A stretch of DNA of 64,000 nucleotides from Candidatus Chloroploca sp. Khr17 (lineage in GTDB: Bacteria; Chloroflexota; Chloroflexia; Chloroflexales; Chloroflexaceae): the NCBI RefSeq assembly GCF_004138165.1, contig NZ_RYFF01000002.1:1-64000 (forward strand), in the 5' to 3' direction. The position numbers and the translations under genes are program-made. Under the pieces are notes generated by a model. The model was not told the DNA's origin. It made no database searches and saw nothing but the letters and a program-made list of their open reading frames with translations. Of this stretch, positions 10,304-29,815 are shown piece by piece (within the stretch, counting starts at the first letter, position 1; every line of letters begins with the position of its first letter).

Positions 10304-11119
10304 ATGCTTCATCACCTTCCAATTGCTGTGATCGGGCCTGGTGCGATGGGCGAGGCGGTTATTGGTGGTCTGCTGCGTCAGGAACTGGTCACTCCTGACC
10401 AGATTCTGGTCAGCCATCCGCGGGAAGAGCGACGCCGTGAACTGGCCGCTACCTATGGGGTGCATACCAGCCCTGATAATGCCGTGGCGGCACGTTGGGG
10501 CCGCATTGTGATTCTGGCGGTCAAACCCCAACAACTGCAGCGCGTGCTGCCGCCGCTGCAACATACGTTACGCGACGATGATCTGGCCATTTCGGTCGTG
10601 GCCGGGGCGACCATCCAGAGCATCGCCGAGGCGCTCGCCCATCCGGCGGTGGTGCGCAGTATGCCCAATACCCCCGCAGTGATCGGTGAGGGTATGACAG
10701 TCTGGACGGCGGCCCACGAGGTGAGCCTTGAGCAGCGTGAGTGGGCCGAGACCGTGCTCGGGGCGCTGGGGTATGCGCTGTTTGTTGATACCGAGGCCTA
10801 TCTTGATATGGCGACGGCGATCAATGGTACCGGGCCAGCCTACTTCTTCTTGATGATGGAGGCGATGGTTGATGCCGGGGTTCACCTCGGGTTGTCGCGG
10901 CGCATTGCCGAAGAACTGGTGCAGCAGACGATGCTCGGCTCGGTACGTTATGCGCAGCAGAGCGGGTTGCATCCAGCGCAACTGCGCAATGCGGTGACGT
11001 CGCCAGGTGGCACAAGTGCCGCCGCTATTTCCGAACTCGAACGCGGGGGGATGCGTACCGTTCTCTCTGATGCGATCTGGGCCGCCTACCGTCGCTCGGT
11101 TGAACTTGGCAAACGGTAG
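10304..11119 (+). CDS. proC: pyrroline-5-carboxylate reductase
   Basis: Last step of proline synthesis: NAD(P)H-dependent reduction of pyrroline-5-carboxylate. 271 aa, normal length. The nucleotide-binding loop is GPGAMGEAVIGGLL at the N-terminus (Pro replaces the usual Gly in GxGxM). The family signature TSPGGTSAAAISELERGG is near residue 230, and NGTGPAYFF precedes it. GGAGAG lies six bases before the ATG. The gene stands alone, between a divergent SDR gene and the convergent carboxylase operon. Confidence 0.95.
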   Translation: MLHHLPIAVIGPGAMGEAVIGGLLRQELVTPDQILVSHPREERRRELAATYGVHTSPDNAVAARWGRIVILAVKPQQLQRVLPPLQHTLRDDDLAISVVAGATIQSIAEALAHPAVVRSMPNTPAVIGEGMTVWTAAHEVSLEQREWAETVLGALGYALFVDTEAYLDMATAINGTGPAYFFLMMEAMVDAGVHLGLSRRIAEELVQQTMLGSVRYAQQSGLHPAQLRNAVTSPGGTSAAAISELERGGMRTVLSDAIWAAYRRSVELGKR

Positions 11120-11189: not shown

Positions 11190-11684
11190 TCAGCTGATCT
11201 CGATTAGCAGTTCGTGCAGTTTTACACTCTGACCGGGCTGGATGTTGAGCATGCTGATCGTTCCGCTGCGGGGGGCCGTGATCTCGTTCTGCATCTTCAT
11301 CGCTTCCAGTACCAGTATTGGCTGTCCTACTTCCACATACTGGCCTGCTTCAACCAGGATGCGGGCAATCAGGCCGGGAATGGGCGCTTTGACGCGCCCG
11401 TCGCCACTCCGTGGCCGTGAAATCGGCGTATCACGGTCACGGATCTGCACGTTGTGCCGCCCACGGGTTGTCTGAATCCAGTGCAGATCATGATCGATCA
11501 GGATCTCGTGCGGACGGTTGCCCACCATCGCCCAGGCGCTATGTGCGGATGTCGCCGACCAGGGGAGCCTCACCCGCACTGGCTCACCATTGACCTGTAC
11601 CTCGATCCACCCTTCGATATTCGGTGAACCACTTATCTCAACCTCAAAATCATTTTCGTTAATGGTGACAAAAAAACGACGCAT
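11190..11684 (-). CDS. accB: biotin carboxyl carrier protein of acyl-CoA carboxylase
   Basis: Carrier subunit of a biotin-dependent acyl-CoA carboxylase, 164 aa. The C-terminal biotinyl domain (residues ~95-164) carries the biotin-attachment motif EAMKM, with Lys130. The N-terminal 90 residues are beta-rich and resemble the BT-like region that docks biotin carboxylase to carboxyltransferase in propionyl-CoA carboxylases. AGAGGAG precedes the ATG. It is the last gene of the six-gene minus-strand operon, 12 bases after the biotin carboxylase. The gene symbol is by function; it is not the two-domain E. coli-type AccB in its N-terminal part. Confidence 0.85.
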   Translation of the reverse strand: MRRFFVTINENDFEVEISGSPNIEGWIEVQVNGEPVRVRLPWSATSAHSAWAMVGNRPHEILIDHDLHWIQTTRGRHNVQIRDRDTPISRPRSGDGRVKAPIPGLIARILVEAGQYVEVGQPILVLEAMKMQNEITAPRSGTISMLNIQPGQSVKLHELLIEIS

Positions 11685-11696
11685 AGGTGCTCCTCT

Positions 11697-13178
11697 TCAC
11701 TGTGGCAAACGACGACTATCACGGTGCCAGCCACTCGTGAAGGCTTCGGGGATTGCTCGATGCGCCGCCTGGGTGCGCTGGAGATAAGCGAGCGCGACAA
11801 TCGCCGCCAGATCGGTGGTGTAATCGCTGACTGGTGGCATCTCGAGCAGGCGTCGTCGGCTAAATTCGGTGGTGTAGGTTCCCGCAATGAAGGCATCGTC
11901 ATTCAAGATGAGCCAGAGCAGCGCGAGGTTCGTTTGCACACCAGTAATCTGAAACTCTTGCAGCGCCCGATGCACCCGGCGTATGCACTCCTCGCGGGTT
12001 GGTCCCCAGACGACCAGTTTCGCCAGGAGCGAGTCGTAACGCACAGGAATTTCAGCCCCGGCATAGGCGTAGGTGTCAACCCGGACATTAGGGCCACCTG
12101 GGATGCGGAAGCCAGTGATATGTCCTGGGCTCGGCAAATAGCCACGCCATGGATCTTCCGCGTTGATGCGACAGAAGATCGCGTGCCCCTGCAGATGCAC
12201 CTCTTCCTGGGCAAAGCCCAGGGGCAGGCCTGCGGCAATGCGCAACTGCTCACGCACCACGTCAATGCGTGTGACCATCTCGTTCACCGGGTGCTCGACC
12301 TGGAGCCGCGGTTTGACCTCGGTGAAGAAATGATTGCCTTCATCATCAAGCACAAACTCGATCGTACACGCACTGCGACACGAAAAGAGCCGCGCCACCT
12401 GGATTGCGGTTGCCCAGATCGCCTCGCGTTGGGCCTGGCTCAGATTTGGTGCCGGTGTCTCTTCGATCACTTTGCGCGTATTGCGCTGGATCGAACCATC
12501 GCGTTCACCCAGATGGATCAAGTTGCCGTGATGATCGCCAAGAATGGGTACCTCGATATAACGCGAAGGGAGCACAGCCTTTTCGAGATAGACCTGTGCA
12601 TCGAGATAGACGGATTGGGCCGCCGCTGATGACCGTCGCACGACCCCAAGCAGATCATCTGGTCCACGGGCGACAAAGGTTCCCCGTCCGCGTCCACCCG
12701 CACAGGCTTTTACCACCAGCGGATAGCCAACCGAGTCGGCTTCACTCAAGAGCGCTTGAGCTTCGTCTGGCATAAAGATCCGTGACGAAGGCTGTGTTGT
12801 TGGAATCCCGACGGCCCTGGCGTGCGCAATCGCACCGACTTTATCACGTACCCGACTGAGCACTGTGCTCCCCGGCCCAACGACAGCAATGCCAGCGGCT
12901 TCACATGCCTGCGCAAACCCTGGATGCTCGGAAATCAGCCCATACCCCGGAAGCACTGCATCAACCTTGCTTGTCCGCGCCGCCGCGAGCATCGCGTCAG
13001 GGTCACGGTAGCCTAGTTGGGCCATAATGGGATACGCCTCGTCGGCCAGGCGGACATGCAGCGCACCTTCATCGCCAGGCTCGTAGACCGCTATCGCCGC
13101 AATGCCCAGGTCACGACAGGCGCGAACCATGCGCACGGCGATTTCGCCTCGGTTGGCGATCAATACTCGTTTGAACAT
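11697..13178 (-). CDS. accC: divergent biotin carboxylase subunit
   Basis: ATP-dependent carboxylation of the biotin on the carrier protein; 493 aa, normal size. N-terminus FKRVLIANRGEIAVRMVRAC is canonical, and the C-terminal LPSPGHITGFRIPGGPNVRVD is recognisable. Three usually invariant sites differ: the Gly-rich ATP loop reads AGGRGRGT rather than AGGGGRGM, the metal-site motif reads EVKPRLQVEH where Asn normally replaces that Lys, and GHAIFCRINAED has Phe for the usual Glu. The start at 13178 has AAGGTG upstream. So it is either a specialised paralogue or impaired; a canonical copy may exist elsewhere. Operon position: between carboxyltransferase (53 bases upstream) and carrier protein. 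Confidence 0.85.
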   Translation of the reverse strand: MFKRVLIANRGEIAVRMVRACRDLGIAAIAVYEPGDEGALHVRLADEAYPIMAQLGYRDPDAMLAAARTSKVDAVLPGYGLISEHPGFAQACEAAGIAVVGPGSTVLSRVRDKVGAIAHARAVGIPTTQPSSRIFMPDEAQALLSEADSVGYPLVVKACAGGRGRGTFVARGPDDLLGVVRRSSAAAQSVYLDAQVYLEKAVLPSRYIEVPILGDHHGNLIHLGERDGSIQRNTRKVIEETPAPNLSQAQREAIWATAIQVARLFSCRSACTIEFVLDDEGNHFFTEVKPRLQVEHPVNEMVTRIDVVREQLRIAAGLPLGFAQEEVHLQGHAIFCRINAEDPWRGYLPSPGHITGFRIPGGPNVRVDTYAYAGAEIPVRYDSLLAKLVVWGPTREECIRRVHRALQEFQITGVQTNLALLWLILNDDAFIAGTYTTEFSRRRLLEMPPVSDYTTDLAAIVALAYLQRTQAAHRAIPEAFTSGWHRDSRRLPQ

Positions 13179-13231
13179 ACAAGCACCTTCGTGCATACCA
13201 ATGCAACTTGCATTGTCGTGCGAAACTCTTC

Positions 13232-14770
13232 CTACATCGGTGAAATGCCATGCTTCTTGGGCAGGTGACGGTCACGTTTCGAGAGCGTCACGTGCAGCGC
13301 CCGCACGAGCACCCGTCGGCTGTCGCGTGGCTCGATCACGTCGTCAATCAGACCACGTGCCGCCGCAACATAGGGGTTGTTGAACTTCTCTTGATAGTCG
13401 CTCACCAGTTGCTGGCTGCGTGCCTTCGGGTCCGCAGCCGCCTTGACCTCGTTGCGGAAGAGGATGTTGACCGCCCCTGCCGCCCCCATCACCGCCAGTT
13501 CGGCGTTGGGCCAGGCATACAGCAAGTCGCCCCGGAGCCCTTTGCTGCTCATGACGCAGTAGGCCCCGCCATAGCTCTTGCGCAGAATTAGCATCAGTTT
13601 GGGCACCGTTGCCTCGGAATAGGCATAAATGAGCCGCGCACCGTTGCGGATGATCCCTCCATATTCCTGACTCGTGCCAGGCAAAAAGCCAGGGACATCT
13701 TGCAAAGTGATGATCGGAATATTATAAGCATCACAGATGCGAATAAAGTGCGTCGCCTTGATTGAAGCTTTGATGTCAATCGTGCCTGCTAAATACATTG
13801 GCTGGTTTGCCACTAACCCAACCACATACCCATCCAGGCGCGCAAAGCCTACGACCATGTTTTGCGCCCAGAGCTCGTGAACCTCTAGGAAACGCCCGTC
13901 ATCCACGATACTAGCAATGACTTCCCGCACATCGTAGGGCTTCTGCGGATCGACCGGTACCAGTTCCTCAAGCTCAGGACAGCGGCGCTCGGGGTCATCG
14001 CGGGGCGGTACATACGGCGGGTCGCTCATATTATTCGAGGGCAGGTAGCTCAGCAATTCGCGCACCTTCAGCAGACACTCCTGGTCATCGCGTGAGAGAA
14101 AGTGCGCCACCCCACTCTCGGTGGCGTGAATTCTCCCCCCTCCCAGTTCTTCCTGGCTGACCTGCTCTTGCATCACTGAGCGCACGACTTCTGGGCCAGT
14201 GATGAACATGTAGCTGTTTTCGGTCATGAAAATAAAATCAGTGAGCCCAGGCGAATAGACGGCGCCGCCCGCACATGGCCCGAGGATCACCGAGAGTTGC
14301 GGGATCACCCCCGAGGCTTCACAGTTGGCATCGAAGATCCGGGCATAGCCCCCCAGACTATCAACGCCCTCTTGAATGCGCGCCCCACCCGAGTCATTCA
14401 GCGCCACAAAAGGACAGCCGTAACTCAGGGCCATCCGCATCGCCTTGACGATCTTGTTCGCGTGCATCTCGCCGAGTGAGCCACCCATCACGCTCGCATC
14501 CTGAGCCGCCGCAAAGACCTGGCGCCCATTGATCAAGCCAAAGCCAGTCACGACGCCATCACCAAACCGTGACCCCTTGCCACCCATATAACTCTCGTAG
14601 CGCGGGGTCACCAGCGTATCAATCTCATTGAAACTATTGGGGTCGAACAATATCTCGATCCGCTCACGTGCCGTCAGGCGACCCTTCTGATGCTGCGCAG
14701 CCGCATCTTTTTCTGTGCCAGCCGCAATGGCTTTACGTTCACGGAGCTTACGAACAAAATCTTCCATCAT
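13232..14770 (-). CDS. pccB: acyl-CoA carboxylase carboxyltransferase (propionyl-CoA carboxylase beta type)
   Basis: Transfers carboxyl from carboxybiotin to an acyl-CoA, giving malonyl- or methylmalonyl-CoA. 512 aa, full length, with both crotonase-like halves. Seen: KGRLTARERIEILFD, NDSGGARIQEG (first oxyanion region), GPCAGGAVYSP, QDVPGFLPG and RKSYGGAYCVMSSK (second half). In actinobacterial enzymes the residue after GGAY is Asp in propionyl-CoA- and Ile in acetyl/propionyl-CoA-preferring forms; here it is Cys, so the preferred substrate is open. It starts at tandem ATGs (14770/14767), 12 bases after the PPTase. Co-transcription with the megasynthase suggests extender supply. Confidence 0.9.
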   Translation of the reverse strand: MMEDFVRKLRERKAIAAGTEKDAAAQHQKGRLTARERIEILFDPNSFNEIDTLVTPRYESYMGGKGSRFGDGVVTGFGLINGRQVFAAAQDASVMGGSLGEMHANKIVKAMRMALSYGCPFVALNDSGGARIQEGVDSLGGYARIFDANCEASGVIPQLSVILGPCAGGAVYSPGLTDFIFMTENSYMFITGPEVVRSVMQEQVSQEELGGGRIHATESGVAHFLSRDDQECLLKVRELLSYLPSNNMSDPPYVPPRDDPERRCPELEELVPVDPQKPYDVREVIASIVDDGRFLEVHELWAQNMVVGFARLDGYVVGLVANQPMYLAGTIDIKASIKATHFIRICDAYNIPIITLQDVPGFLPGTSQEYGGIIRNGARLIYAYSEATVPKLMLILRKSYGGAYCVMSSKGLRGDLLYAWPNAELAVMGAAGAVNILFRNEVKAAADPKARSQQLVSDYQEKFNNPYVAAARGLIDDVIEPRDSRRVLVRALHVTLSKRDRHLPKKHGISPM

Positions 14771-14782
14771 AAGTCTCGACTC

Positions 14783-15547
14783 TCATATTCCATACAGCGG
14801 TGACTGGATAACCGGTCGGTTGCCCACCTGCTCGGTGACGAGACGTGGGGTAATGGCGGCAATCGTCAGGACAACATGGTGATCCTGGCGCCACCAGCAG
14901 CGTACGCCAGCTGGCGGTGCGCCAAGCGACGGATCGCAGTGGGCGAGAAATGCTCGCCAGCCAGCATCCTGGTCTGCTGCGTCGAGCAGTGGTACCAGGC
15001 ATTCGACAAGACGTGTATCAACCCGCAAGCCGTGCCGTAAGGCTTTTAGGACAGCCTCTTTGGTGCTCCAGATTGCATTGAGCAAGAGGTTGTAGTGGGA
15101 GGGATCGGTGGCTTCGAGCAACGCGAGCTCGCCAGGCGTGTAGTAGGTTTCGGCAAAGTTCGCATGCCGTGGCTCGATCTGCTCAATATCGGCACCCACC
15201 GGTGCCCCCGCAGGGGCCAGCGCACAAAAGGCCTGCCCCGCACTATGGCTGATCGTGAGGCGTACCGTCCCGAGGGCCATCCGCAAGGCGGGATCAAGCG
15301 CATGGATTTCGGGTGCGCCATCAGGGGCCGGCAGAATCATCAGTTCCGTTGGGTGGGGCGCGAAGCCAAGCTCGCGTTGTGTCCAGGCCTGGATGAGCCG
15401 CCGCGCTGTCCAACGTCCGAGCAACCACTCTTCACGCCGTTTTTCCATGCGGAGTGTCCGCATCCGATCACGTTCGGGTACGCTTAGCCATAGTTCTGGT
15501 GCTACGGCCGGTAGATCGGATCGTTGTTGGATCAGCCAGTCAATCAT
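14783..15547 (-). CDS. 4'-phosphopantetheinyl transferase (Sfp/HetI type)
   Basis: Transfers phosphopantetheine from CoA to carrier proteins. 254 aa, the size of the Sfp/Gsp/HetI group rather than the short AcpS. The Mg/CoA signature is present as GADIEQIEPRH near residue 125 and WSTKEAVLKALRHG near residue 170. The start at 15547 has AGGAAAG upstream; a longer frame runs into a hairpin. It lies directly downstream of the megasynthase (70 bases, with a hairpin) and 12 bases before the carboxyltransferase, so the megasynthase carriers are its obvious targets. Those carriers lack the usual acceptor Ser, which makes its real target worth testing. Confidence 0.9.
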   Translation of the reverse strand: MIDWLIQQRSDLPAVAPELWLSVPERDRMRTLRMEKRREEWLLGRWTARRLIQAWTQRELGFAPHPTELMILPAPDGAPEIHALDPALRMALGTVRLTISHSAGQAFCALAPAGAPVGADIEQIEPRHANFAETYYTPGELALLEATDPSHYNLLLNAIWSTKEAVLKALRHGLRVDTRLVECLVPLLDAADQDAGWRAFLAHCDPSLGAPPAGVRCWWRQDHHVVLTIAAITPRLVTEQVGNRPVIQSPLYGI

Positions 15548-15570
15548 GTCTTTCCTATGCGCCTGGTTGG

Positions 15571-15607
15571 GCGTTGGGCAGGCAGGAACTTCCCGCCTGC
15601 CCAACGC
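15571..15607. repeat. hairpin between megasynthase and PPTase genes
   Basis: GCGTTGGGCAGGCAGG paired with its complement across a short loop, one mismatch, no T-tract. Within an operon it could trim transcript levels of downstream genes or stabilise a processed end. Confidence 0.65.
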
Positions 15608-15616
15608 TATTCTTTC

Positions 15617-18600
15617 CTACAGGTGCGCCGTCCCCGGCAAGCGGGCTGTCCGATAGCCGTGCAGATCAAGATAGACGTTCCCCAGGTCGTCAACAACCCG
15701 TGCGTCAAAGCTCGTGCCGTTTTCGACCGGGGTGACGATGGCGTAGATCTGCGCGTCGCCAGCCTCTTCCAGATGCCGATAGACCTCAAGCGTGTCAAGT
15801 GAGGATGGCAAGGCCATCGCCTCGGTCTGGACGATCTCCCACACGCCTGCTGTCTGGAAGCAGAGCTCTAGCAAACGTGGGTCAACCAGGTGTTCGGCGT
15901 TGATCGGGGTGCTATCGGGTGGCAGGTCGCCCGCCAGCATGCCAATCGCCATCTCGTCGCTCAGCATGACCTTCTCGAGCACCTGGTACGCTGGGCCGTG
16001 GAAGTAGACTTTGTAGATCTCACTTCGCTCGATCACCCGCGCATGCTCGTCCGCAATCGGTTGTTCGGTCTGCGCCGCAGTCAGTTCCCCACGCGTGAGG
16101 CGAACCTCGGCCCGGAAGTGTACCGTCTCTTGCGCTGGTGGCGGGGTCTGCCCTGGGGCCACTACCGGTTGGAATGTCGAGCTCAACGTGGTCTGGGCCA
16201 GCAGATCTCCACCTTCGGCAGGCCGAATGACCGCCCGCAGCGTCAGTGTGCGTGGCTGGCTGCGATGGAATTTGACCGGGCTATCGAGCCGCTCATGCTC
16301 GATCCGCGCCAGACGGAAGTCAGGGGCAAACAGCCCCGCCACCTCCGCAAAGCCTTCGGTGCCCATCACGCCCGGCAACACCGGTGTCCCTTCGATCTGA
16401 TGATCGTACAGGAACGGTTGCTCGTGCGGATCAAGTGAGGTCTGGGCAATGATGCCACCATATAGCTTGGCGGCTTCGACTGTGCCGACCATCAGGTACG
16501 GGCGCTCACGCGCAGCCAGCGTTGCTGCGACTTTGTCTGGGTCAAGGCCGCCGTTCGGGTCAAACTCTTCGGTGAGGACACCCAGGCGCAACCCGACGAC
16601 GATTTCGTCGCGGGTATCGCCCGCCGTCAATTCGCGCCTGATCGTTGGGATGCCAACCTCGGGGGGCAGCATATCAATCCCCGCCATCTCCATGATCCGT
16701 GGGATCGACCCACGGGTCGCCATCCCGATCCCGCCCCAGGCTGTCCAGTCAATCACAATGGCACGTGTGTCGGGGCGCCAGCGCCGCATGCTGCTGCTGA
16801 TTTTGCAGAGCAAGTCGTTCGCGGCACTGTAGTCGGTCTGACCACTGTTGCCAAACCGCCCGGCCACGGAACTGAAGGCGACGGTTGCGCCAATCGGCAG
16901 GCCCTTGGCCGCCCGCAGCATATTGAAGAAGCCATCAGCCTTGATGTCAAAGACGCGGCTGAATTCGTCGTGCGCTTTCTCACTCAACGCCCGACTGATC
17001 TCGATGCCACCTGCGTGCAACAACACATCAATGCGGCCCTCGCGCTCGCGAAGGGCGTCAATGACCCCGGCAACCGCTGGGGTATCACGCAGGTCGAGGC
17101 TGTAGTAGTTGGCTGTACCGCCCGCTGCTTCGATCACTTCAATCACCCGCAACGCCGCCTCTGACCGTTCCACCGCCATGATGCCCCGGTCAATCTGCAC
17201 TGGCGTTGGCCGTTCGCCGCGGGCCTGCGCTTCCGCGATCAGCGCCGTCTTCAGTGCGGCCCGATCTTGCCGGAAGAGCCGAATGTGCTCGTCGGCGGGA
17301 TCTGGCTCTGGCGTGAGATCGAGCAGGTAGAACGTGCCACCCATCCCGGCTGCCGCCAGGTCGCCAATGATCGCACTCGTGATGCCCCCCGCTGCCCCCG
17401 TCACCAGATAGACCGTCTCGGGCGTCAGCACCATCCCCGAGTTGCCATTGTAGGCGTGGCGCTCTTCCAGGCTGATGCTCAGCCGGAGCCCGTCACTGTA
17501 GCCGACTTCAACGATGCCCGGATCGCTCAGGGTTTCGGCGATCAGGCTCTCGGCTGGTTCGACACTCTTGCGCCCGGTCTCGAAGTCAACCGCTTTGACC
17601 AGCACCGACGGGTATTCGCGCTTGTAGGCTTTGGCAAACCCTGTCACTGCACCGCCAAGCGGGGCCGCCGCGCCTTCGTCGTCGTAGCCGTGCCGCCCAC
17701 CCATCCGCGTTCCCACCACGAGGAAGGGAATGCGCTCGGGTTGCGCCCCAACGAGCGTGTGCGTCGCCAGATGCAGATTCTTGACTCGCGCACGGTTCAG
17801 TTCGTGCCACTCTGCCAGGTCAAGCTCTTCCAGGTCTGGCTCGACCTCAAGGGCCGGTAGCCAGTAGAGCCCGTCAACCGGCCCTTCGGCAAGCATGCCC
17901 TGGATCATCGCGACAATGGCACCCTCTTCCGGTGGCGCCTCAATCGGCAGCACCGTCACGCCCCGCTTTTCAAGCCGCGTTACGAGCGCTTTGCCGACAC
18001 CACTCCGATCCAACATGACGATGACCCGCACGCCTTCACCAAGCTGGGCGTTCGTTGCTTTGCAGAGATCCAGTGGTGGCCGGAGCACTGGTGTGGCGAC
18101 GCGCCGTGGCGCTCGGTTTGCTTCGCTCAGGTCGTAGGCCCCGGTAGGCACTGCTGTGGTCGTCTGCGTTGACTCAGCCGTTGCGCTCGCGCCTGTTCCT
18201 TCGCTCACCACCGCCGCGCCATTTCTGGTCTCGGGACGCTTTGTATAGACAAAGCCAATCACGTCGCGTAGCGTCGGATAATCGCGCAGCTTCAGATCTT
18301 CGATGCGGGGGATGTTGAACGCTTCGCGCACTGCCGCAAAGGTCTCGGCTTGCTTGACCGTGTCGACCCCCAGGTCGGCCTCAAGGTCGAGGTCGAGATC
18401 GAGCATCTCAATCGGGTAGCCGGTCTTGTCGGCGACCAGGTTGAGCACCGTTGTCGTGACCTGATCCTCCGCTGAGGCCATGCTTTGCGCTGGTGCATTT
18501 CCATTCGGGGCGATCGACGGTGCTGTGGCAACGGTTGTCGCTGCCGCTGCCGCCAGATCGGGGCGCTGCGTATGCACAAAGCCAATCACATCGCGCAGCG

Positions 18601-21600
18601 TTGGATAATCGCGCAGCTTCAGGTCTTCGATGCGGGGGATGTTGAAGGCCTCGCGCACCGCCGCAAAGGTCTCGGCCTGTTTGACCGTGTCGACGCCTAG
18701 GTCGGCCTCGAGATCAAGGTCAAGATCGAGCATTTCGGTCGGGTAGCCGGTCTTGTCGGCGACCAGACCAAGCACCGTTTCGGTAATTGGATCGATCGAT
18801 GGCTGAGTCACCGGTGTTGCCGCCGGTGCAACTGCTGTCGCCGGTGTCGGGGCCACCGCTGCCGGTGCTGCCACTGATGCGGCGAGATCGGGCCGGTGTG
18901 TGCGCACAAAGCCGATTACGTGCCGCATCGTCGGGTAGTCGCGGAGCTTCAGGTCTTCGATGCGGGGGATGTTGAAGGCTTCGCGCACTGCCGCAAAGGT
19001 TTCGGCCTGCTTGACGGTGTCGACGCCCAGGTCAGCCTCGAGGTCGAGGTCAAGATCGAGCATCTCAATCGGGTAGCCAGTCTTGTCGGCGACCAGGTTG
19101 AGCACCGTGTCAGCCACGGGATCACTCACGCTTACTGGCGCACTAATGGTGATCGGTTGGAGCGCTGCGGCGACGGGCGCTGCCGCCGGTGCCGCCACGG
19201 GCGCGGCGAGATCGGGTCGCTGTGTACGCACAAAGCCGATCACGTGCCGCATCGTCGGATAGTCGCGCAACTTCAGGTCTTCGATGCGGGGAATGTTGAA
19301 GGCTTCGCGCACCGCCGCAAAGGTTTCGGCCTGCTTGACCGTGTCCACGCCCAGGTCGGCCTCGAGGTCGAGGTCGAGATCGAGCATCTCAATCGGGTAG
19401 CCGGTCTTGTCGGCGACCAAATTGAGCACCGTGTCAGCGACGGGATCGCTCACGGTGGCTGTCACACTAACGGCGACTGATTGGGGCGCTGTGGCGACGG
19501 GTGCTGCCACTGGTGTTGCCACCGGCGCAGCGAGATCGGGCCGTTGCTCACGGACAAAGCCGATCACATGGCGCATCGTCGGGTAGTCACGCAGCCTCAT
19601 GTTCTCGATGCGGGGAATGTTGAAGGCTTCGCGCACCGCCGCAAAGGTTTCGGCCTGCTTGACCGTGTCCACGCCCAGGTCGGCCTCGAGGTCGAGGTCG
19701 AGGTCGAGCATCTCGCTTGGGTAGCCCGTCTTGTCGGCGACGAGCTTGAGCACCGTGTCCGCGACCGGATCGCTCACGACTGGCGGCGGACTGACCACCG
19801 CAGGCTGGGATGCTGGTGCCGGGGCAACCGGTGTTGGCGCAACAACGGGTTTGTGCGCAGCTGGTGCTGGAGCCGGCGCAACCGGTGCCGTTGGTTTTGT
19901 GGCAACTGGAGTCGGCGCAACCGGCGCCGTTGGTTTTGTGGCAACTGGAGTCGGCGCAACTGGCGCTGGTGTTGCTGGTCGGCTCACCACACTTGGCGCG
20001 CTCGGGCGGCCATTGCTTGCTGGCATAACCGCCATGTGATGTCCGGCCACATCAGGCGCAAACGCTGCGCGCTGCACCGGCCCGGTGCCAGCAACCCAGT
20101 CACTTGGTGCTGGTACGCGCTTTGGCGCACCCTGGGCCTTGATCCGCAAGACGCGTTTCACCACTTCGGTCTCGGCCCGGTCATAGCCACTCACCTGGGC
20201 CAGCCAATAATCATAGCGCTGGCGCTGATCAATGCGCTCGCTTGATCCTGGAATGCGTCGCAGCAAGGTCAGCGCGATCTGCGAGCCAAAGCCTGCTGCC
20301 AGGTGGATCGCATAGCGCACCGGGTAACGTCCGCCGCGGCTCAGGTTCAACTGGCCGAGTTCGGGGTCGGGCTCGCGGTAGTTCGGTACCGGCGGCACAA
20401 TGCCATGCTCCAGGATCTTGACCGCGATCACATCTTCGATGCCCACCCCCATCGGATGGCCGGTGAAGCCTTTGGTGTTGGCGATGACAATGTCGCTCGC
20501 CGCTGGCCCAAAGGTGTGCCGCAAGGCGGCGATTTCGGCCGAAGCACTGCCGCCCCGGGCCGGCGTAAAGGTCTCGTGCGAGATAAAGACCGTCTGCGCC
20601 GCCATGGTGCGCCGATCCAACCCAAAGCGCTGCTCGGCGGCCCGCACCAGATTGTCCACAATCTGGCTGATGTGCTGCACATCCAGGCGCGTTCCGTGGA
20701 AGGCGCTATTATTCGTCTCACTCGAGAGCACCTCGACAATGCCGCGCATGCCACGCTCGCGGACGGCATCCTCGCTCTCGACCAGCAAGGCACACGCGCC
20801 CATGCCGAGCAAGGTGCCATGCCGACGCCGATCAAACGGCAACGCAGCCTCTTCGACCGCATCATCGGTTGCCGCGGCCCCCGTTGCCAGGAAGCCGGCC
20901 CCGACCCATTCGAGCATATGCTCGCTTGTGACATCGTCGCCGCCCACTACCAACACCCGTCGACAGCGCCCACTGCGGATCCAGTCTTCGGCAATCGCAA
21001 CGGCCTGTGCGGTCGAGGCACATGCCGCATTGACATGCGTATTGGGCCCGCGTGCGCCGATATACTCGGCCAACTGGCTATGGCCCATCGCCAGGATGCG
21101 GAAGATGAAGCGTCGGTCGAATGTGTACGGATTGCGTTCGATCTCGTCGCGTACTTCGTTCATGCGCTGCGTCAGACGCATCAGCGTCGCCTCGTCACTC
21201 GTCACGTTGCGCAGCGCTTCCAGTTCCTGCAGCAGCGCCAGACGACCCTCGTGCTCGTAGTAGCGCTGCAACTCGCCACTCAACTGGTCATAGCCAGGGA
21301 AGGCGCTCGCAAAGATAACGCCAGTCTCGTCACGCAAGGCCTCGGGTAGCATCCAGCGCTCGGGCAAGAAGGTGCCCTTGCTCGTCTTTTTGTAGGTTTG
21401 CACCAGCGGAAGGCCGGCCTCACGCAGCGCATCAAGCCCCGCCGCCATCGCCAACTGGCTGGTGATGTCCAGCGCCTCCACCAGATTGGCCGCGACGCCG
21501 TATTCCGCCGTGAGGTCAAAGCTCCCTGAGCGCCCCGCGAGCCGGATCACATCGTCGGCGTGATCGATCTCTTGAAAGCTACCGCCGCCATCTTCACCCT

Positions 21601-24600
21601 TGACCACCCGGGTTACATGCTTCTTGACCATCAACCGACGGAAGCGCTCGGGAATGAGATCAATCAGTTGCTCGCCACGCAGGATGCGCTCGGCATTATC
21701 GAGTGCCATTAATGGCTTTGCCGCCCCCGGCAGGCCCAGGCCCGTGCCACTGATGACAATCGATCCGGCTGGTGGTCGATTACGGTCGTAGGCAGTCGGG
21801 TGTGGAGCCGGGCTTGCGCCATTGCCTGCCCCTTGCCGAAGCGCCTGTGTCAACAAGGCACTCAAGGCTTCGAGCCCTTGCCCATTCCCGTTGCCATGCT
21901 GCGCTCCATGATAGTCGCCCTGGCTCATCTCGCGGGTATCCTCCACCGGGCTCGCCTGAGCCATTTCGGCGTCAAGCGCGGGCAGATGTGCTACATTCGC
22001 AGGTAGGCGATGGGTTACCACCGGTGCCTCGTGGGCATAGGCTGCGGCGACCTGTCGAGGTGCCGCGACTGCGACCGGCTCAGCTGCATCCAGGCCTGCC
22101 GCATAGAGCCCGCAGAGCGCCTGGTTAAAACTGGCAAGCTCACCCGTTTTGGGATGGTTGGTAAAGAGCGCAACGGCATCGCCTTTGTCACCAAGTACAT
22201 CATCAACAAAGCCCTTCAACGCCTTCTTGGGGCCGCACTCGATAAAGATCCGGCATCCCTCGCGATAGAGCGTCTCGAGTCCCTTGACCCACTGCACCGG
22301 CGAGGCGATCTGGCGCTCCAGAAGATCCTTGATGCCCTCCACCGTGGTCGGATAGAGTTCGCCGGTCACATTGGCGACCAGCGGCAGTTCTGGTTCACGG
22401 ATGTGCAAGCGGTCGAGTACCTTGCGCAACGGCCCCGACGCCGGGGCGACAATGCTCGTGTGGAAGGCATGACTCACCGGGATGCGCTGGGCCTGGAACC
22501 CACGGCTAACAAAGAGGTCAATTGCTTGCTCGACGGCCCGACTCGCGCCACCGATCACGGCCTGGCTATAGCTATTGAGGTTGGCTGCAACCACATAGCC
22601 ATCAACCTCTTTGAGCGTGCTCTCGATCACCTCAAGCGGGGCCATGACGGCGGCCATCCAGCCATTATCCTCTACGCTCACCCTGGTCATCTCGGCACCA
22701 CGGGCGGCTGCCGCCTCGAGCGCCTGGGCAAAGGGCATAATGCCCGCCGCCACCAGCGCTCCATACTCCCCAAGCGAATGGCCCATCACCATATCGGGAC
22801 GAATGCCATACTCCGCGAGCAGCGTTAGCAGCGCGATATCGAGCGTCAGCATCGCCGGCTGGGTAATCGCCGTCTGCATCAGCGCCCGCTCGGCCTGCTT
22901 GATCACCGTCGGATCGTCGCTATCCACAAAGAGATAACTCGTTAACGGTTGCCCAAGGATCGGCGTCATCACCGCATCAGCCTCGGCAAAGACGGCGGCG
23001 ACCGCCGCTGAGTGCTGGGCAAGCTCGCGCCCCATATTGAGGTACTGGCTGCCCTGGCCGGGGAAGAGAAAGGCCACTTTCCCGGCAACCGTTCCACTGC
23101 CCCGAAAGATACCCTGGGCGGCAAGGGGTCGCCATGCAGCCGGATTATTCAACCCCGCAGCGCGCGCTGCCTTGCCCAGTTTCTCGGCCAGGTCGCTTGC
23201 CTCGCTAAAATCCACGACGAGCCGCTCGGGTTGACGGAGTTCGGCCCGCTCCGGCGCAGCAAGTGGCGGTGTCCAGCCACCTTTCACGCGCTCAAGGGTC
23301 GCCGTGATCCGCGCTGCCAGATCGGCGCTTGTTGCTGCACCCAGGGCCAGCATGCCCCGCAACGGCGGCTTCTGATCCACTTGAGCAGGGGCAGCATAAT
23401 GTTTGCTCATACTCTTCGCCTCTTCGCCTCTAGCCTCACCAGGGATCGCAGCACTCTGATAGCGGCGTGGGCCAGTGGTGATCATCCCGGGCACATACTC
23501 TTCAAGCACCAGGTGAAAATTGGTTCCCCCAAACCCATAGGCACTCACGCCCGCACGGCGGGGGAAGGCCGCTGGCCGCTCCCACTCGCGTCCCTCGTGG
23601 AGCAGGCTAAAAGGCGTTGCCGTGAAGTCAACACTCGGGTTTGACGGCATTGCATTGAGCGTCGGCGGCAAAATCTTCTCGTGAACCGCGAAGGTCGCCT
23701 TGAGCAACCCGGCGGCTCCAGCTCCGGCTTTCAGGTGGCCAATATTGCTCTTGGCCGACCCGAGGCCGATGCGCCCGCGTTCGACGCCCGCAAAGACCTT
23801 GCTCAGACTCTCGACTTCCACCACATCACCGACCCGCGTGCTCGTGCCGTGTGCTTCGAGCAGCGTGCAGGTCGCGGGGTCAAGCCCGGCATGTTTCCAT
23901 GCACGCTCGACCGCATAGATCTGCCCGATCGGATTGGGCGCCGTAATGCCCTTGCCTTTGCCATCCGACGCCGCCCCGACCCCACGGATCACGGCGTAGA
24001 TCGTATCGCCATCGCGTTCCGCATCCGCCAGGCGTTTCAGCAAAAACGCCGCAGCGCCTTCACCCATCACAAAACCATCGGCCCCATCGCCAAATGGGCG
24101 TGTCCCGGTCGCCGAAAGCGCCCCGATCTTGCAGAATTTTACATAAGTCGAAATGCCCATATTGCGGTCAACGCCACCCGTCACCACCGCATCAACATGG
24201 CCTTCGCTCAGCATCTCAACGGCAGCCGCAACCGCGGCAAAGGTCGAAGCACAGGCTGCATCCGTGATAAAGTTGGGTCCGCGCAGGTTGAGCACATTCG
24301 CCACCCGTCCGGCGACGATATTGGGCAACTCACCTGGCATCGAGTCTTCGCTGATCGCGGGCAACTTCCGCCCCACTTCAGCATAAAACTGAGCCAGCAT
24401 CGCCGCCTGCACCTCAGCGGGAAGCGTTTTGAAGGCGTCGGTACTCGCAAGATAGTTGGCAAAATCGGGGGCCACGATGCGCTGATTGGTCAGGTAGTGC
24501 AACTCGCCGCCCATCGCCGTGCCGAGGATAACCCCGGTATTGTCGGTATTGAGCGCCCGGTCAGGCAAGCCGTAATCAGCCAGCGCCTCGGCGGCAACCG

Positions 24601-24895
24601 TGACCGCCCACTGCTGCCCTTCATCCATCGCACTCGCCACGCGGGGCGGAATGCGGAAACGCTGCCAATCAAACTGGAAACCCCGTACCCACCCACCGAT
24701 CTTCGTGTAGGTCTTGTCAGGGGCCGCCGGATCAGGATCGTAATAATCCGCCAGGCTCCAGCGATCAGCCGGTGTCTCGCTGATGCTGTAGCGCTTAGAA
24801 AGAATATTCTGCCAGAATGCTCGTGCATTAGGAGCATCAGGCAACATCGCGCCAACGCCCACGATGGCGATGGCGCACGAGGCCGAAGTATCCAT
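15617..24895 (-). CDS. type I polyketide / PUFA-synthase-like megasynthase
   Basis: Protein of 3092 aa. Start is the ATG at 24895 with GGAGGAG six bases upstream. Domain order: ketosynthase 1 (~10-460; Cys215 in DAACAST, EAHGTST, SNIGHL), acyltransferase (~640-960; Ser707 in GHSLGEYG), ketosynthase 2 (~1045-1545; Cys1292 in [24 protein letters not shown]), a Pro/Ala linker, five tandem carrier domains (~1705-2225), a ketoreductase (~2280-2760; Tyr2689 in TDYSAAND), and a hot-dog dehydratase (~2790-3080; His2832 in [12 protein letters not shown]). No enoyl reductase or thioesterase is seen. The tandem carriers and KS-AT-ACPn-KR order recall PfaA of PUFA synthases, but with a second ketosynthase and a dehydratase in one chain. 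All five carriers have Thr (1744, 1852, 1960, 2070, 2179) in LGVDTVKQ instead of Ser. The product is likely a modified long-chain lipid; this is inference. Confidence 0.9.
18240..19780. repeat. five tandem carrier-domain repeats
   Basis: Five copies of a ~325-bp unit (108-110 residues each) within the megasynthase gene. The core of each copy encodes [19 protein letters not shown], nearly identical at the protein level and very similar in DNA, with variable Ala/Pro linkers between. Copy number may be unstable by recombination or misassembled in short-read data. Confidence 0.9.
19890..19967. repeat. 39-bp tandem repeat in Pro/Ala linker
   Basis: Two near-identical 39-bp units starting GTTGGTTTTGTGGCAACTGG encode 13-residue repeats of the type [13 protein letters not shown] in the flexible linker before the first carrier domain. 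The unit keeps the frame, so copy-number change would only alter linker length. Confidence 0.8.
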
Positions 24896-24932
24896 GAAAA
24901 GCTCCTCCGGAGCACCCCCACGCAGGGGGTCA

Positions 24933-26570
24933 CTACTCTGCCGGGAACGCGGCATTGAGCCGCTCGGCAACGATATTCATATCCTCAATCTGTCCAGCTT
25001 GAGCCTGATAAATCGCCGGTAGCCCGAGGTTTCCCGCTAGGTTGGGATCGGTCTGCCCTGCACTGATGCACCAGCGTAGCCCATCGGTGGCGACCTTGAG
25101 TGCCGCCTCGCGGGCGTGAATGCGCGCCATGGTGCGTAGGGTTTCGGGGCTAAAGGGCACGGCCTTGCTTGGGTTATTGGCGGCGCGCTCGCTAAAGATC
25201 GCGGCCGTTTCGGCCCACGCAATCAACTCACCAAGCCGGAAGAGAATATGCTGATTGCGGGTCAACCGATCAAGCCGGCAGCGCTCTAGCACCACCGCCA
25301 GTGCACGCAACGCCAGCGCGGTGGTGGCGGCCCCGGTGTCGGGGTTGGTACGGGCCAGTTGCTCGAGTTTCGCCGCCCAGTCGTTGTAGTAGGCTCCACG
25401 CGTCTTCAAATGCAACTGCCACCGATCACGCGCAATCGTCCACTCCATAATCTCCGAGGTACCCTCGTAGATACAGGTGATCCGCACATCGCGCTTGACC
25501 TTCTCGACCATATACTCTTTGGTGTAGCCATAGCCACCGTGCGCCTGGATCGCATCTTCAGCCGCCTTATTGCCGCTCTCGGTGGCGAAATACTTCGCTA
25601 CGGCCCCCTCGGTCTGCTGCCCGGGGTCGCCCGCATCAATATTTTCCGCAACCCACTCGATATAAGCGCGTGAGGCTTCGAGCCGCACTGCATTCGGTAC
25701 CAGCAGTTTGTGGGTGTAGGCCTGTTTCGTCGAAAGCAGCGCCCCACCTTGAATGCGCGTCTGCCCATACTGAATCGCCCGCTCAAGCGCGCTCCAGCCT
25801 CCACCCATGCCAAAGGCCGCGACCATCAGTCGGGTATAGCCAAAGACCGCTTGCGCCTGCGCAAGCCCCTGCCCTTCGACGCCGCCGACCAGATTTTCGG
25901 CTGGCACAAAGACCTCATCAAGGAAGAGCGCTGCCGTATTCGAAGCCCGAATGCCGTGCTTATCTTCGGGCTTGCCCCAGCTAAAGCCAGGCGCCCCCCG
26001 CTCAACGACAAACCAGGTTGGCCCGCCTTCGGTATTGGCAAGAATCGTATAGAGCGTCGCCACCCCACCATTCGAAATCCACTGCTTGCGCCCCGAGATC
26101 TTGTAGCCAGTCAGTTGCCCATCTTCATAGACTGGCGTTGCCCGGGTCGTCAGGCTGCCAAGATCACTCCCTGCCTGCGGCTCAGTCGCCCCATAGGCCA
26201 CCAGCAAGCCCTCGTCGGCAATGCGCCCCATCCAGAGCGCCTTCTGCTCGTCGGTGCCACCCACCACGATTGGATCCGTGCCGAGAAAGGTTGCTAGTAC
26301 TCCCGTCGCGACCCCAAGGTCGATGCGTGCCATTTGCTCGGAAACGCGGTAAATATCGTAAGCACCCCCACCGAGCCCACCGAACTCTTCGGGGATGAAA
26401 ATAAGGTGCAGGCCAAATTTCTCAGGGTCGTAGAGATCCTTCAGCACCTGGTGCGGAAATTCGTCACGTTCGTCCAACTCCCTCAGAAATTCGGGTTTCA
26501 GTTGCCGGTCGGCATAATCCCGCAACGTCGTCAGTACCATCTCCAGCGTATCGGTATCCAGGGTCGTCAT
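24933..26570 (-). CDS. acyl-CoA dehydrogenase
   Basis: FAD-dependent acyl-CoA dehydrogenase, 545 aa. Conserved segments: [15 protein letters not shown] and [13 protein letters not shown] in the N-terminal/middle domains, and [16 protein letters not shown], whose Glu is the usual catalytic base of this superfamily. A C-terminal extension of about 120 residues makes it longer than the ~380-aa soluble class, closer to the longer bacterial members. Start at 26570 has GGAGG nine bases upstream. It is the first gene of the minus-strand operon, 37 bases before the megasynthase, and could supply or modify an acyl-CoA starter, or work on the product. Substrate not determinable. Confidence 0.85.
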
Positions 26571-26886
26571 TACCTGTCCCTCCGAACTAGACCCATAACA
26601 TAAGGGTATAAAACAGGCTCTAGTGTACACCATCGCAACGCGCTCGCGCCAATAAGTTGCAGAAGTAATAGATAAGAGATATTTATTATGCGAGAAATTT
26701 CGTTCACCGTTATGTTTCTAGGAGTATCAATTTGTGCCTTTGCCTTGTCTGTGAAAACATTCTCAATTGTATCAATCCATGGTATACTAAGCCGAGACTG
26801 CCCAGGTTTCGCTCAGTGAATGGACGTATGTTGCACAGAATAGGGCAGCCCTGCAGCGCACTCAGGAGTTCCAACAGGGAGAGTGT
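26571..26886. other. divergent intergenic region
   Basis: 316 bases between the divergent megasynthase operon and pntAA. The pntAA-proximal half is AT-rich and holds a candidate promoter. I could not place a convincing promoter for the leftward operon, although one must be here or the operon is read from further upstream. No hairpin or ORF was seen. Confidence 0.6.
26760..26788 (+). promoter_or_regulatory. candidate promoter of the pnt operon
   Basis: TTCTCA (26760-26765), 17-base spacer and TATACT (26783-26788). The -10 box is good, the -35 box weak. It lies 98 bases upstream of the pntAA start. Confidence 0.45.
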
Positions 26887-28059
26887 ATGATCGTCGGCAT
26901 TCCGGCTGAATTGGTGTCGGGTGAAGATCGCGTGGCGATCGTCCCCGCAGATGTGCCAGCCCTCATGAAAATGGGGTTGCAAGTTGTCGTTGAGGCAGGT
27001 GCCGGGATGCGGGCCGGGTTTCCTGACGCTGCCTATGTCGAACGTGGGGCGCGTACCGTGGCGTCGCGTACCGAGGTCTATGCGCAGGCTGATATCGTGC
27101 TCAAGGTGCGGGCGGCCGGCGCTGATCCAGGTCACGCCGATAAAGAACGGGCGATGTTGCGTCCTCAGCAGTTGTTGATCGCGTTTCTTGAACCGCTGTG
27201 GGAACCAAGGTTGGCGGCGAGCTTGGCTGAGCGAGGCGTGACCGCGATGGCGATGGAGTTGATCCCTCGCATCAGTCGTGCGCAGAGTATGGATGCGCTC
27301 TCTTCAATGGCGACGGTGGCCGGCTACAAGGCAGTGCTGATTGCGGCTGCCAGTATGCCGCGGATGTTTCCGATGTTGATGACGGCCGCTGGTACGGTGA
27401 CGCCCGCTCGGGTCTTTGTCATTGGTGCCGGTGTGGCTGGGCTTCAGGCATGTGCTACCGCCAAACGCCTTGGGGCGCGCGTTGAGGCCTATGATGTCCG
27501 TGCTGCAGTGAAAGAACAGGTCGAGAGCGTTGGTGCCAAGTTTGTTGAGTTGCCCCTTGAAACAGGCAGCAGCGAAGACAAAGGTGGCTATGCCAAAGCG
27601 CTTGGCGATGATTTCTACGAGCGGCAGCGCAAGTTGATGGCTGAAGTGGTCGCACGTAACGATCTCGTCATTACAACGGCTGCTATTCCAGGGAAGCCAT
27701 CACCGGTCTTGATTACGGCTGAGATGGTTGCTGGCATGCAGCCTGGTTCGCTGATTGTCGATCTCGCCGCCGAACGTGGGGGGAATTGTGCCTTGACCCG
27801 GTCTGATCAAATTATCGTCGCGCATCATGTCACGATCATTGGGCCAGGTAATTTGCCCGCAACGGTGCCTAATCACGCGAGCCAACTCTATAGCCGTAAT
27901 CTGATCAATCTGCTCCGCCTCTTGGTCAAGGATGGCAAATTGACGGTCAATATGGATGATGAGATTATCCGTGAGTCTACCGTCGTTCACGATGGCAAAG
28001 TTGTCAGCGCCAGGATCAATGATCTGATTGGTGCGGGTACACCAGTTGCCTCGTCATAG
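26887..28059 (+). CDS. pntAA: NAD(P) transhydrogenase subunit alpha, part 1
   Basis: Soluble NAD(H)-binding domain I of proton-translocating transhydrogenase, 390 aa. Hydride is passed to the NADP site of PntB and coupled to proton entry to make NADPH. The N-terminus GIPAELVSGEDRVAIVPADV and the Rossmann loop VIGAGVAGLQACATAKRLGA are clear. It lacks the membrane helices that are fused to PntA in E. coli; these come as the separate next gene, as in Rhodospirillum-type three-subunit enzymes. GGGAGAG precedes the ATG. First gene of pntAA-pntAB-pntB. Confidence 0.93.
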   Translation: MIVGIPAELVSGEDRVAIVPADVPALMKMGLQVVVEAGAGMRAGFPDAAYVERGARTVASRTEVYAQADIVLKVRAAGADPGHADKERAMLRPQQLLIAFLEPLWEPRLAASLAERGVTAMAMELIPRISRAQSMDALSSMATVAGYKAVLIAAASMPRMFPMLMTAAGTVTPARVFVIGAGVAGLQACATAKRLGARVEAYDVRAAVKEQVESVGAKFVELPLETGSSEDKGGYAKALGDDFYERQRKLMAEVVARNDLVITTAAIPGKPSPVLITAEMVAGMQPGSLIVDLAAERGGNCALTRSDQIIVAHHVTIIGPGNLPATVPNHASQLYSRNLINLLRLLVKDGKLTVNMDDEIIRESTVVHDGKVVSARINDLIGAGTPVASS

Positions 28060-28144
28060 CTGATCACTCAACGCATCGACGCATCAGTTAGACCAGCAGC
28101 GGTCGTTCTGATCGCTTGCCCCTGGATAACAAAGGAATCTTCGC

Positions 28145-28426
28145 ATGGAAATACTCGTGGTCTCGTTGACCGTCTTTGTTCTGGCGCTTTTTATTGGTGT
28201 TGAGATTATTACCAAAGTGCCGCCAACCCTGCATACGCCGTTGATGTCAGGCTCGAATGCTATTTCAGGCATTACCTTGGTTGGGGCGATCCTTTCGGCT
28301 GGCTCGCTGGGGCCACAGGCGGCGACAATCCTTGGCTTTCTGGCTGTTATTCTTGCGACGATCAATGTGGTCGGTGGTTTTATGGTGACGAATCGCATGC
28401 TTGGCATGTTTCGCCGGAAGGATTGA
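28145..28426 (+). CDS. pntAB: NAD(P) transhydrogenase subunit alpha, part 2
   Basis: Protein of 93 aa with three hydrophobic helices, matching the small membrane subunit of three-gene transhydrogenases. Recognisable: FIGVEIITKVPPTLHTPLMSG followed by an ISGITLVGAI segment. AAAGGA lies eight bases before the ATG. It is three bases before pntB. Together with part of PntB it forms the proton channel. Confidence 0.93.
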   Translation: MEILVVSLTVFVLALFIGVEIITKVPPTLHTPLMSGSNAISGITLVGAILSAGSLGPQAATILGFLAVILATINVVGGFMVTNRMLGMFRRKD

Positions 28427-28429
28427 GCG

Positions 28430-29815
28430 ATGGGCAACGCGCTGATTAATTTGGCTTACCTTGCGTCGGCAACGCTCTTTATCCTTGGCATCAAGGGCCT
28501 TACCCATCCACGTACCGCCGTGCGTGGCAATCAACTCGGTGCGATCGGGATGCTCATCGCGGTCGTAACCGCTTTGGTCGATCAGCAGGTCGTCAATTAT
28601 GTCTGGATCATCGCTGGCTTGGTCATCGGTTCGGGCATCGGTGCCCTGATGGCGACCCGCGTCCAGATGACCGATATGCCCCAGATGGTTGCGTTGCTCA
28701 ATGGTTTCGGTGGTGCCGCTTCGACTTTTGTCGCCGGTGCTGCCCTCCTTGATGCGCTTCAGATCGATCTGGCACTCATTACGCCGCAGTTTATTGTTGC
28801 TACTGCTGCCTCCGGTCTTGTTGGTACCGTGACGTTCTGGGGCAGCCTTGTGGCGTTTGGTAAGCTGCAGGGCATTGTCAAGGATGTTCGCTTGCCGGGT
28901 GCCCAGATCTTTAATGCGATCTTGCTCGTCGTCGCTCTCGCGCTCTCGGTCTGGCTGATTGTTGATCCGACGGCCGTCTGGATCTATTGGGCCATTGTGG
29001 TTGTCTCTTCGATCCTTGGGCTTTCGCTCGTCTTTCCTATCGGTGGCGCCGATATGCCGGTGGTGATTTCGTTGCTCAATTCTTATTCGGGTATTGCCGC
29101 CGCTGCCGCTGGTTTTGTCCTTACGAATAATGCGCTGATTATTACCGGTTCTCTCGTTGGGGCCTCTGGGATTATTCTTACGAGCATTATGTGCCGGGCG
29201 ATGAATCGGTCGTTGACGAATGTGCTCTTTGGCATCTGGGTTCCCTCGGATGCCGCTGATAGTAGCGATGATGTCTATGGCGGGCGCGTCAAGGCGGCCA
29301 ATGCTGAAGAATTGGCCATGTTGATGGAGACAGCGCGCCGGGTGGTGATTGTTCCCGGTTATGGTATGGCTGTCTCGCAAGCCCAGCACGCGGTGCGCGA
29401 TCTCGTCAATTTGCTCGAAGAGCGTGGTGCTGAAGTCGAGTTTGCCATCCATCCGGTTGCCGGTCGCATGCCCGGCCATATGAATGTGTTGCTCGCCGAG
29501 GCCGATATTCCCTACGATAAGATGAAGGAGATGGATGAGATCAATCCTTCCTTCGAACAGACCGATGTGGTTATTGTCATTGGGGCGAATGATGTCGTCA
29601 ATCCCGTTGCACGTACCAATCCGAGTAGCCCCATCGCTGGGATGCCTATCCTTAATGTCGATAAGGCCCGCAGTATTATTGTGATTAAGCGGAGCCTTAG
29701 CCCCGGCTTTGCCGGTATCCCTAACCCGCTCTTTGCGGCCGATAATACGCTGATGCTCTTCGCCGACGCCAAAAAGGGTGCCCTCGATATTATGAATGCC
29801 CTCAAAGCAGTATGA
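28430..29815 (+). CDS. pntB: NAD(P) transhydrogenase subunit beta
   Basis: 461 aa: about eight or nine N-terminal membrane helices (residues ~1-270), then the soluble NADP(H)-binding domain III with VPGYGMAVSQAQHAVRDL and FAIHPVAGRMPGHMNVLL, and VVIVIGANDVVNPVA. Complete and canonical. In the cell this enzyme supplies NADPH, which the reductive lipid synthesis encoded upstream would consume; any direct link is inference. It starts with GGAAGGA upstream. Confidence 0.95.
   Translation: MGNALINLAYLASATLFILGIKGLTHPRTAVRGNQLGAIGMLIAVVTALVDQQVVNYVWIIAGLVIGSGIGALMATRVQMTDMPQMVALLNGFGGAASTFVAGAALLDALQIDLALITPQFIVATAASGLVGTVTFWGSLVAFGKLQGIVKDVRLPGAQIFNAILLVVALALSVWLIVDPTAVWIYWAIVVVSSILGLSLVFPIGGADMPVVISLLNSYSGIAAAAAGFVLTNNALIITGSLVGASGIILTSIMCRAMNRSLTNVLFGIWVPSDAADSSDDVYGGRVKAANAEELAMLMETARRVVIVPGYGMAVSQAQHAVRDLVNLLEERGAEVEFAIHPVAGRMPGHMNVLLAEADIPYDKMKEMDEINPSFEQTDVVIVIGANDVVNPVARTNPSSPIAGMPILNVDKARSIIVIKRSLSPGFAGIPNPLFAADNTLMLFADAKKGALDIMNALKAV

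Follow-up and report, generated by a model that had tools for sequence, protein, structure and literature searches.

The first 64,000 nucleotides of contig NZ_RYFF01000002.1 from Candidatus Chloroploca sp. Khr17 (hereafter the window, part of a 267-kb contig in a 6.38-Mb genome) carry, at 11190-26570 on the minus strand, six closely spaced genes in the order acyl-CoA dehydrogenase (ACAD), multidomain synthase, Sfp-type 4'-phosphopantetheinyl transferase (PPTase), carboxyltransferase, biotin carboxylase and biotin carrier. The synthase combines ketosynthase (KS), acyltransferase (AT), acyl carrier protein (ACP), ketoreductase (KR) and dehydratase (DH) domains, and its ACPs are the main subject of this report. 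Pfam and NCBIfam assign all six proteins to the following families.

24933-26570, minus strand: acyl-CoA dehydrogenase (Pfam; full open reading frame 24933-26633, ATG at 26570 behind GGAGG)
15617-24895, minus strand: synthase KS-AT-KS-ACP5-KR-DH, 3092 residues (Pfam; open reading frame 15617-24970, ATG at 24895 with GGAGG upstream)
14783-15547, minus strand: Sfp-type PPTase (PF01648; open reading frame 14783-15604, ATG at 15547)
13232-14770, minus strand: acyl-CoA carboxylase carboxyltransferase (PF01039; top solved relative 1x0u, 625 bits)
11697-13196, minus strand: biotin carboxylase (PF00289, PF02786, PF02785; second ATG at 13178)
11190-11684, minus strand: biotin carboxyl carrier (PF00364)

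In ascending coordinates, and with the start codons of a preliminary description of this DNA, the intergenic gaps are 12, 53, 12, 69 and 37 bases, each within one base of the short gaps which that description had listed for six minus-strand genes. Among named organisms, Candidatus Chloroploca asiatica (99% identity over the second KS) and C. mongolica (98%) are closest at this locus. A pseudogene is ruled out for the window, and for relatives with intact frames over the stretch examined.

Pfam recovers from the synthase a KS, an AT, a second, partial KS signal, PP-binding repeats, a KR and both halves of a DH, and the protein scores 1168.6 bits against the curated PfaA model TIGR02813 (cut-off, 1010.1). 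The ATG at 24895 yields the length of 3092 residues proposed earlier, and the Pfam matches and the ACP count bear out the domain order. The domains, and the codons at the 4'-phosphopantetheine (4'-PP) sites, are as follows.

23651-24871, minus strand: first KS, KS1 (PF00109/PF02801)
22214-23071, minus strand: AT with motifs GHSLG and HAFH (PF00698)
20171-21703, minus strand: second KS, KS2, FabF-like with an intact Cys-His-His triad (FabF proteins are its best solved relatives)
18230-19783, minus strand: five tandem ACPs, each with LGVD-Thr-VKQAE (motif counts; PF00550 matches in the genome search)
19664-19666, minus strand: ACP1 4'-PP site, Thr codon ACG
19340-19342, minus strand: ACP2 4'-PP site, Thr codon ACG
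19016-19018, minus strand: ACP3 4'-PP site, Thr codon ACC
18686-18688, minus strand: ACP4 4'-PP site, Thr codon ACG
18359-18361, minus strand: ACP5 4'-PP site, Thr codon ACG
16733-17413, minus strand: KR (PF08659)
15629-16462, minus strand: DH, two half domains (PF21089 and PF14765)

The most unusual feature of the cluster, absent from the preliminary description, is the presence of Thr instead of Ser in every ACP. To our knowledge, Ser is treated as the invariant residue of 4'-PP attachment. PF00550 finds 25 carrier domains across the genome, with Thr in the five of this synthase and Ser in the 20 elsewhere. A search with KS2 returned 126 relatives, from which 80 named loci were kept (46 stand outside the counts), and a further set holds 40 more divergent loci, with KS2 identity down to 43%. 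Thr occupies the site in all 183 ACP motifs of the named loci (a single match with Glu, in L114, has no ACP motif and is omitted) and at all 103 scored sites of the divergent set, where one partial match is unscored and four of the 40 loci have no ACP in reach. After de-duplication, a pattern that fixes the flanking residues and leaves the carrier-site residue free gives Thr at 288/288 sites from 101 of 121 loci. A redundant count, in which genomes are doubled (L021-L038 overlap L040-L119) and eight partial matches stop short of the site, gives 247 Thr and two Ser, both from a paralogous PfaA on another contig (C3, locus L039). The reading of Thr as a local oddity is rejected, since the same residue stands throughout the named and the divergent loci.

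The codons differ among the 288 sites (ACG, 181; ACC, 82; ACA, 13; ACT, 12), with two or more Thr codon types present in 36 loci. Because a single base change would restore Ser, yet none has done so in 288 sites, Thr looks actively kept. Nor is there an obvious substitute attachment site, as no ACP column exceeds 13% Ser across 245 distinct copies. The predicted model of the ACP (mean predicted local distance difference test score, pLDDT, 85.5) is ACP-like, with helix II at residues 40-54 and Thr at residue 40, which would place the site where helix II begins, as in canonical ACPs; the departure lies in the residue itself, Thr in 5/5, and the closest five solved carriers among those listed have Ser at this position. 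A natural Thr-type carrier family did not appear in the titles and abstract openings listed by literature searches for Thr at the carrier site, with subscription journals mostly outside the coverage, and an exact-phrase query came back empty.

A second PUFA-like (polyunsaturated fatty acid) locus of the same genome, L039 (C3:8000-27990), encodes a PfaA-like protein whose two Ser ACPs have identical motif segments; these Ser ACPs are an internal contrast to the Thr ACPs. An extra Thr ACP precedes KS2, in the KS1-AT or the AT-KS2 interval, in the divergent loci L206, L209, L210, L211 and L212. The assemblies of L035, L036, L037 and L038 end just past KS2, at near-identical ACP repeats. Contigs stop within many loci, often at these repeats, so that ACP counts in draft genomes are lower bounds; loci are called testable below where the contig is long enough.

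The catalytic residues of the synthase are conserved, which supports the functional enzyme of the preliminary description. Among the loci covered, KS1 keeps Cys215 in 110/110, His349 in 109/110 and His387 in 110/110, and AT keeps Ser707 and His812 in 116/116. In an alignment of 120 loci to the window protein, KS2 retains Cys1292 in 120/120 and both His1440 and His1480 in the 118 loci covered at those positions. The intact triad and the FabF-like profile mark KS2, as judged by sequence, as an active ketosynthase; the alternative of a chain-length factor (CLF) is rejected on the same residues. The KR residues Ser2676, Tyr2689 and Asn2693 are kept in 31/31 aligned relatives, as are His2832 of the DH and, in its second half, Glu3010 and Gln3014; DH Asp3005 is not conserved. 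Pfam finds neither an enoyl reductase (ER) nor a thioesterase among the six proteins, and Pfam and NCBIfam searches of the six genes bear out the earlier remark that PfaB, PfaC and PfaD homologues are absent from the operon along with these two activities. By the usual rule, HAFH in an AT signifies malonyl specificity. The AT would thus load malonyl, and methylmalonyl is an unlikely extender, so that of the two CoA esters named in the preliminary description, malonyl- and methylmalonyl-CoA, the first is favored and the second is not.

The PPTase of the cluster is a conventional member of the Sfp class in its catalytic core. Asp120, Glu122, Lys163, Glu164 and Lys168 are invariant across 35 aligned members, the GxDxE and WxxKEA motifs are present, and the predicted model (mean pLDDT 92.3) has the Sfp fold, with 4mrt (E 5.9e-13) and 2cg5 (E 8.1e-13) as matches; a single-sequence phmmer search with the PPTase found no solved relative, and an alignment-based search found them. 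What distinguishes it from other Sfp-type enzymes is that its partner carriers present Thr and that two residues past the KEA motif, Gly173 and Asp177, are invariant in its family. The PPTase and the synthase belong together, as is shown by proximity, co-occurrence and fusion. In 61 related genomes, the PPTase subfamily (cut-off E < 1e-50; next genome, 1.3e-32) occurs in 24/24 genomes with the synthase and in 1/37 without it; this one (G034) is 84% complete, and the four other sampled members of its genus have the synthase. Where no copy was detected directly after the synthase, a genome search recovers the PPTase in 6/6 genomes, twice on the same contig. In the distant loci L210, L211 and L212, the PPTase and a Thr-ACP synthase share one open frame. 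Most simply, this PPTase would be the enzyme that arms the ACPs on Thr.

Gene order is conserved as well. The preliminary description had made its operon depend on synteny in relatives, and synteny is present: matches to all six genes occur in 25/80 named loci, in identical order, and this order recurs in many genera, which places it beyond chance. ACAD lies upstream of the synthase in 62/64 testable named loci (in L103 it sits just past the distance limit, and L114 has none) and in 23/33 distant loci, and the PPTase lies downstream in 38/42 named and 20/23 distant testable loci. Of the 22 named loci whose contigs extend 6 kb or more past the synthase, 15 have the complete set of carboxylase genes there, two have the carboxyltransferase only and five none of the three. 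From these counts, synthase and PPTase form the core, with ACAD almost always beside them in closer relatives; the absence of ACAD and carboxylase from distant loci places both outside the core. The carboxylase is an optional add-on, found mainly in Chloroflexota and also in L067 (Thermoanaerobaculia). One Kiruna bin of an uncultured Oscillochloris holds two synthases, 84% and 74% identical to that of the window over KS2 (L042 and L054).

The preliminary description regarded the system as undescribed. Its synthase and PPTase core, as far as the covered parts of the source go, is Type R of 2011, in which one protein with the order KS-MAT-CLF-ACP(3-6)-KR (MAT, malonyl acyltransferase) is followed by a PPTase and the product is unknown (Shulse & Allen 2011, PMC3098273). 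The sections covered name Roseiflexus castenholzii, RS-1, Koribacter, Solibacter and Elusimicrobium as hosts and place an acetyl-CoA carboxylase gene between synthase and PPTase in Koribacter (PMC3098273). The window shares with Type R the single PfaA homologue, five ACPs (within the range of 3-6) and a PPTase directly downstream; its P1a motif, DGAP, matches the x(G/D)xP of Type R. The segment at P1b', for which the motif is hShxH, reads LTISH in the window; its second position is Ser in 46/52 aligned relatives. Roseiflexus bins (L049, L053, L055 and L058) carry the cluster. The window differs in that the KS2 triad is intact and KS2 is no CLF, a DH follows the KR, ACAD lies upstream and the ACPs have Thr; the words "threonine" and "serine" are absent from the text of the 2011 paper as covered (PMC3098273). 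On sequence grounds, we classify the operon as a Type R secondary-lipid synthase, a known and uncharacterised class, with the reservation that the assignment follows gene order and PPTase placement and that the ACPs of the reference strains are represented by the Roseiflexus bins. As far as the literature covered extends, three traits have no earlier description: Thr at the carrier site, a second KS with its triad intact and the regular association with ACAD.

Two other systems invite comparison. Like the PUFA synthases PfaABCDE (Types A and B), the operon in the window has a synthase above the PfaA cut-off, tandem ACPs and its own PPTase, but it has no PfaB, PfaC or PfaD, places its second KS and its DH on the single polypeptide and uses Thr instead of Ser; a PfaD homologue lies elsewhere in the genome, at the PUFA-like locus (C3:10583-11896). 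Iterative polyketide synthases of the enediyne type join KS, AT, ACP, KR and DH on a single polypeptide accompanied by a PPTase, with one KS and one ACP each. The likeness extends to the fused PPTase of L210-L212, whereas the synthase in the window has two KS domains and five ACPs.

We posit, and consider fairly likely, that the locus is a Type R operon whose dedicated Sfp-type PPTase attaches 4'-PP to the Thr of the ACPs. A single iterative synthase would build the chain on the tandem ACPs: the AT would load malonyl units, the two ketosynthases would condense them, and KR and DH would process the β-carbon, while the matched PPTase would place 4'-PP on the Thr of each ACP. In many Chloroflexota the co-encoded acyl-CoA carboxylase would supply the extender, and ACAD could act on intermediates or on the product, which is presumably a lipid.

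Several observations weigh against this proposal. E. coli ACP S36T is unmodifiable by 4'-PP, does not support growth and serves as a negative control (PMC3340395), S36T loses an ACP interaction in a 2026 study (PMC13343975), and spinach ACP S38T is cited as a loss of function (PMC9310384), all according to the covered portions of these papers; by analogy, Thr may also mean that there is no arm. The co-occurrence of PPTase and synthase, at a Fisher p of 4e-16, ignores shared ancestry, and no PPTase was detected directly downstream in 4/42 named and 3/23 distant testable loci. Among distant loci, moreover, Gln replaces KS1 His349 in one, the HAFH motif of the AT contains Gly in two, ACAD is missing in 10/33 and the full carboxylase occurs in 0/17.

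Two alternatives bear on the carrier itself. Thr could be an inherited quirk, a tolerated stand-in for Ser, with the ACPs armed by any promiscuous Sfp-type PPTase in the cell. The genome does encode three other PPTases, the fold and catalytic residues of the cluster enzyme are ordinary, and the original spinach S38T study reportedly found the Thr form modified to some extent; nevertheless, it is one subfamily that co-occurs strictly with the synthase (24/24 versus 1/37) and is fused to it in three relatives, the host enzyme leaves E. coli ACP S36T unmodified (PMC3340395, as covered), and a tolerated stand-in sits poorly with zero reversions to Ser in 288 sites where one base suffices. We regard this explanation as unlikely. 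Quite improbable, in our estimate, is that the ACP-like domains are unmodified and serve as a scaffold, or that the chains are borne as CoA esters or by a different carrier, with the PPTase acting on other proteins. Such a scheme would accord with the loss of modification in the E. coli Thr variant (PMC3340395, same portions) and with the presence of two CoA enzymes, ACAD and carboxylase, within the operon. Against it, all catalytic domains that depend on a holo-ACP are conserved, the site shows none of the drift to Ala, Gly or Asn expected of a dead one, and the PPTase is adjacent to, co-occurs with or is fused to the synthase.

A third alternative concerns the limits of the system. The preliminary description saw a self-contained and undescribed six-gene unit in which the carboxylase of the operon is needed for the extender, and the six-gene matches in 25/80 named loci, with order kept, speak for such a unit. 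The carboxylase, however, is missing beside the synthase in five and reduced to the carboxyltransferase in two of the 22 named loci with room for it, and the full set is found in none of the 17 distant loci; the core was already described in 2011, to judge from the covered text of PMC3098273. Elsewhere in the genome there are three full-length carboxyltransferases and an AccD/AccA-like pair, by which the in-operon carboxylase is rejected as the only one of the cell and is more likely dedicated than essential. We therefore find the six-gene unit doubtful: the genes are linked, as was claimed, but self-containment is a weak claim. What the preliminary description observed at the locus stands, and its interpretation is supported in part.

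If the proposed Type R operon with a Thr-directed PPTase is taken as a guide, it appears likely on balance that a lipid-synthase lineage across Chloroflexota, Acidobacteriota and Myxococcota has moved 4'-PP from Ser to Thr together with a matched PPTase, an orthogonal mode of carrier arming. Under strict cut-offs, KS2-profile matches occur in 24/400 sampled genomes of the phylum of the window, 24/347 in that of L083 (Acidobacteria) and 20/195 in that of L104 (Myxococcota), counts that refer to genome samples with few candidates scored per genome. This spread across the sampled phyla makes the question of Thr widely testable. If true, the proposal would mean that a natural family that keeps Thr breaks the rule of Ser invariance, would caution against scoring Thr ACPs as inactive in genome mining, would account for a PPTase that travels with its synthase, and would offer a possibly orthogonal pair of carrier and PPTase.

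Of the accessory proteins, ACAD aligns with the solved structures 5lnx, MCAD and CarC over residues 10-385 and has its catalytic Glu in the segment YEGTSEI. One possible role is dehydrogenation of the product; another is enoyl reduction, with the enzyme running backwards and an electron carrier as its partner, in place of the missing ER. Its C-terminal ~160 residues have no Pfam match. In the carboxyltransferase, the last residue of the motif YGGA(Y/H)x is Cys in the window and at the 26 sites read among the 27 loci that have the full carboxylase set, and Ile or Val in four listed solved carboxyltransferases; PccB has Asp there. Given this Cys, the acyl-CoA preference of the enzyme encoded at 13232-14770 may be unusual.

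The six genes are flanked by genes on the opposite strand.

10304-11119, plus strand: pyrroline-5-carboxylate-reductase-like gene, flanking the six genes
26887-29815, plus strand: matches to NAD(P) transhydrogenase alpha (AlaDh_PNT) and beta (PNTB), divergent from the operon

The transhydrogenase-like genes beside the operon may point to a link with NADPH.

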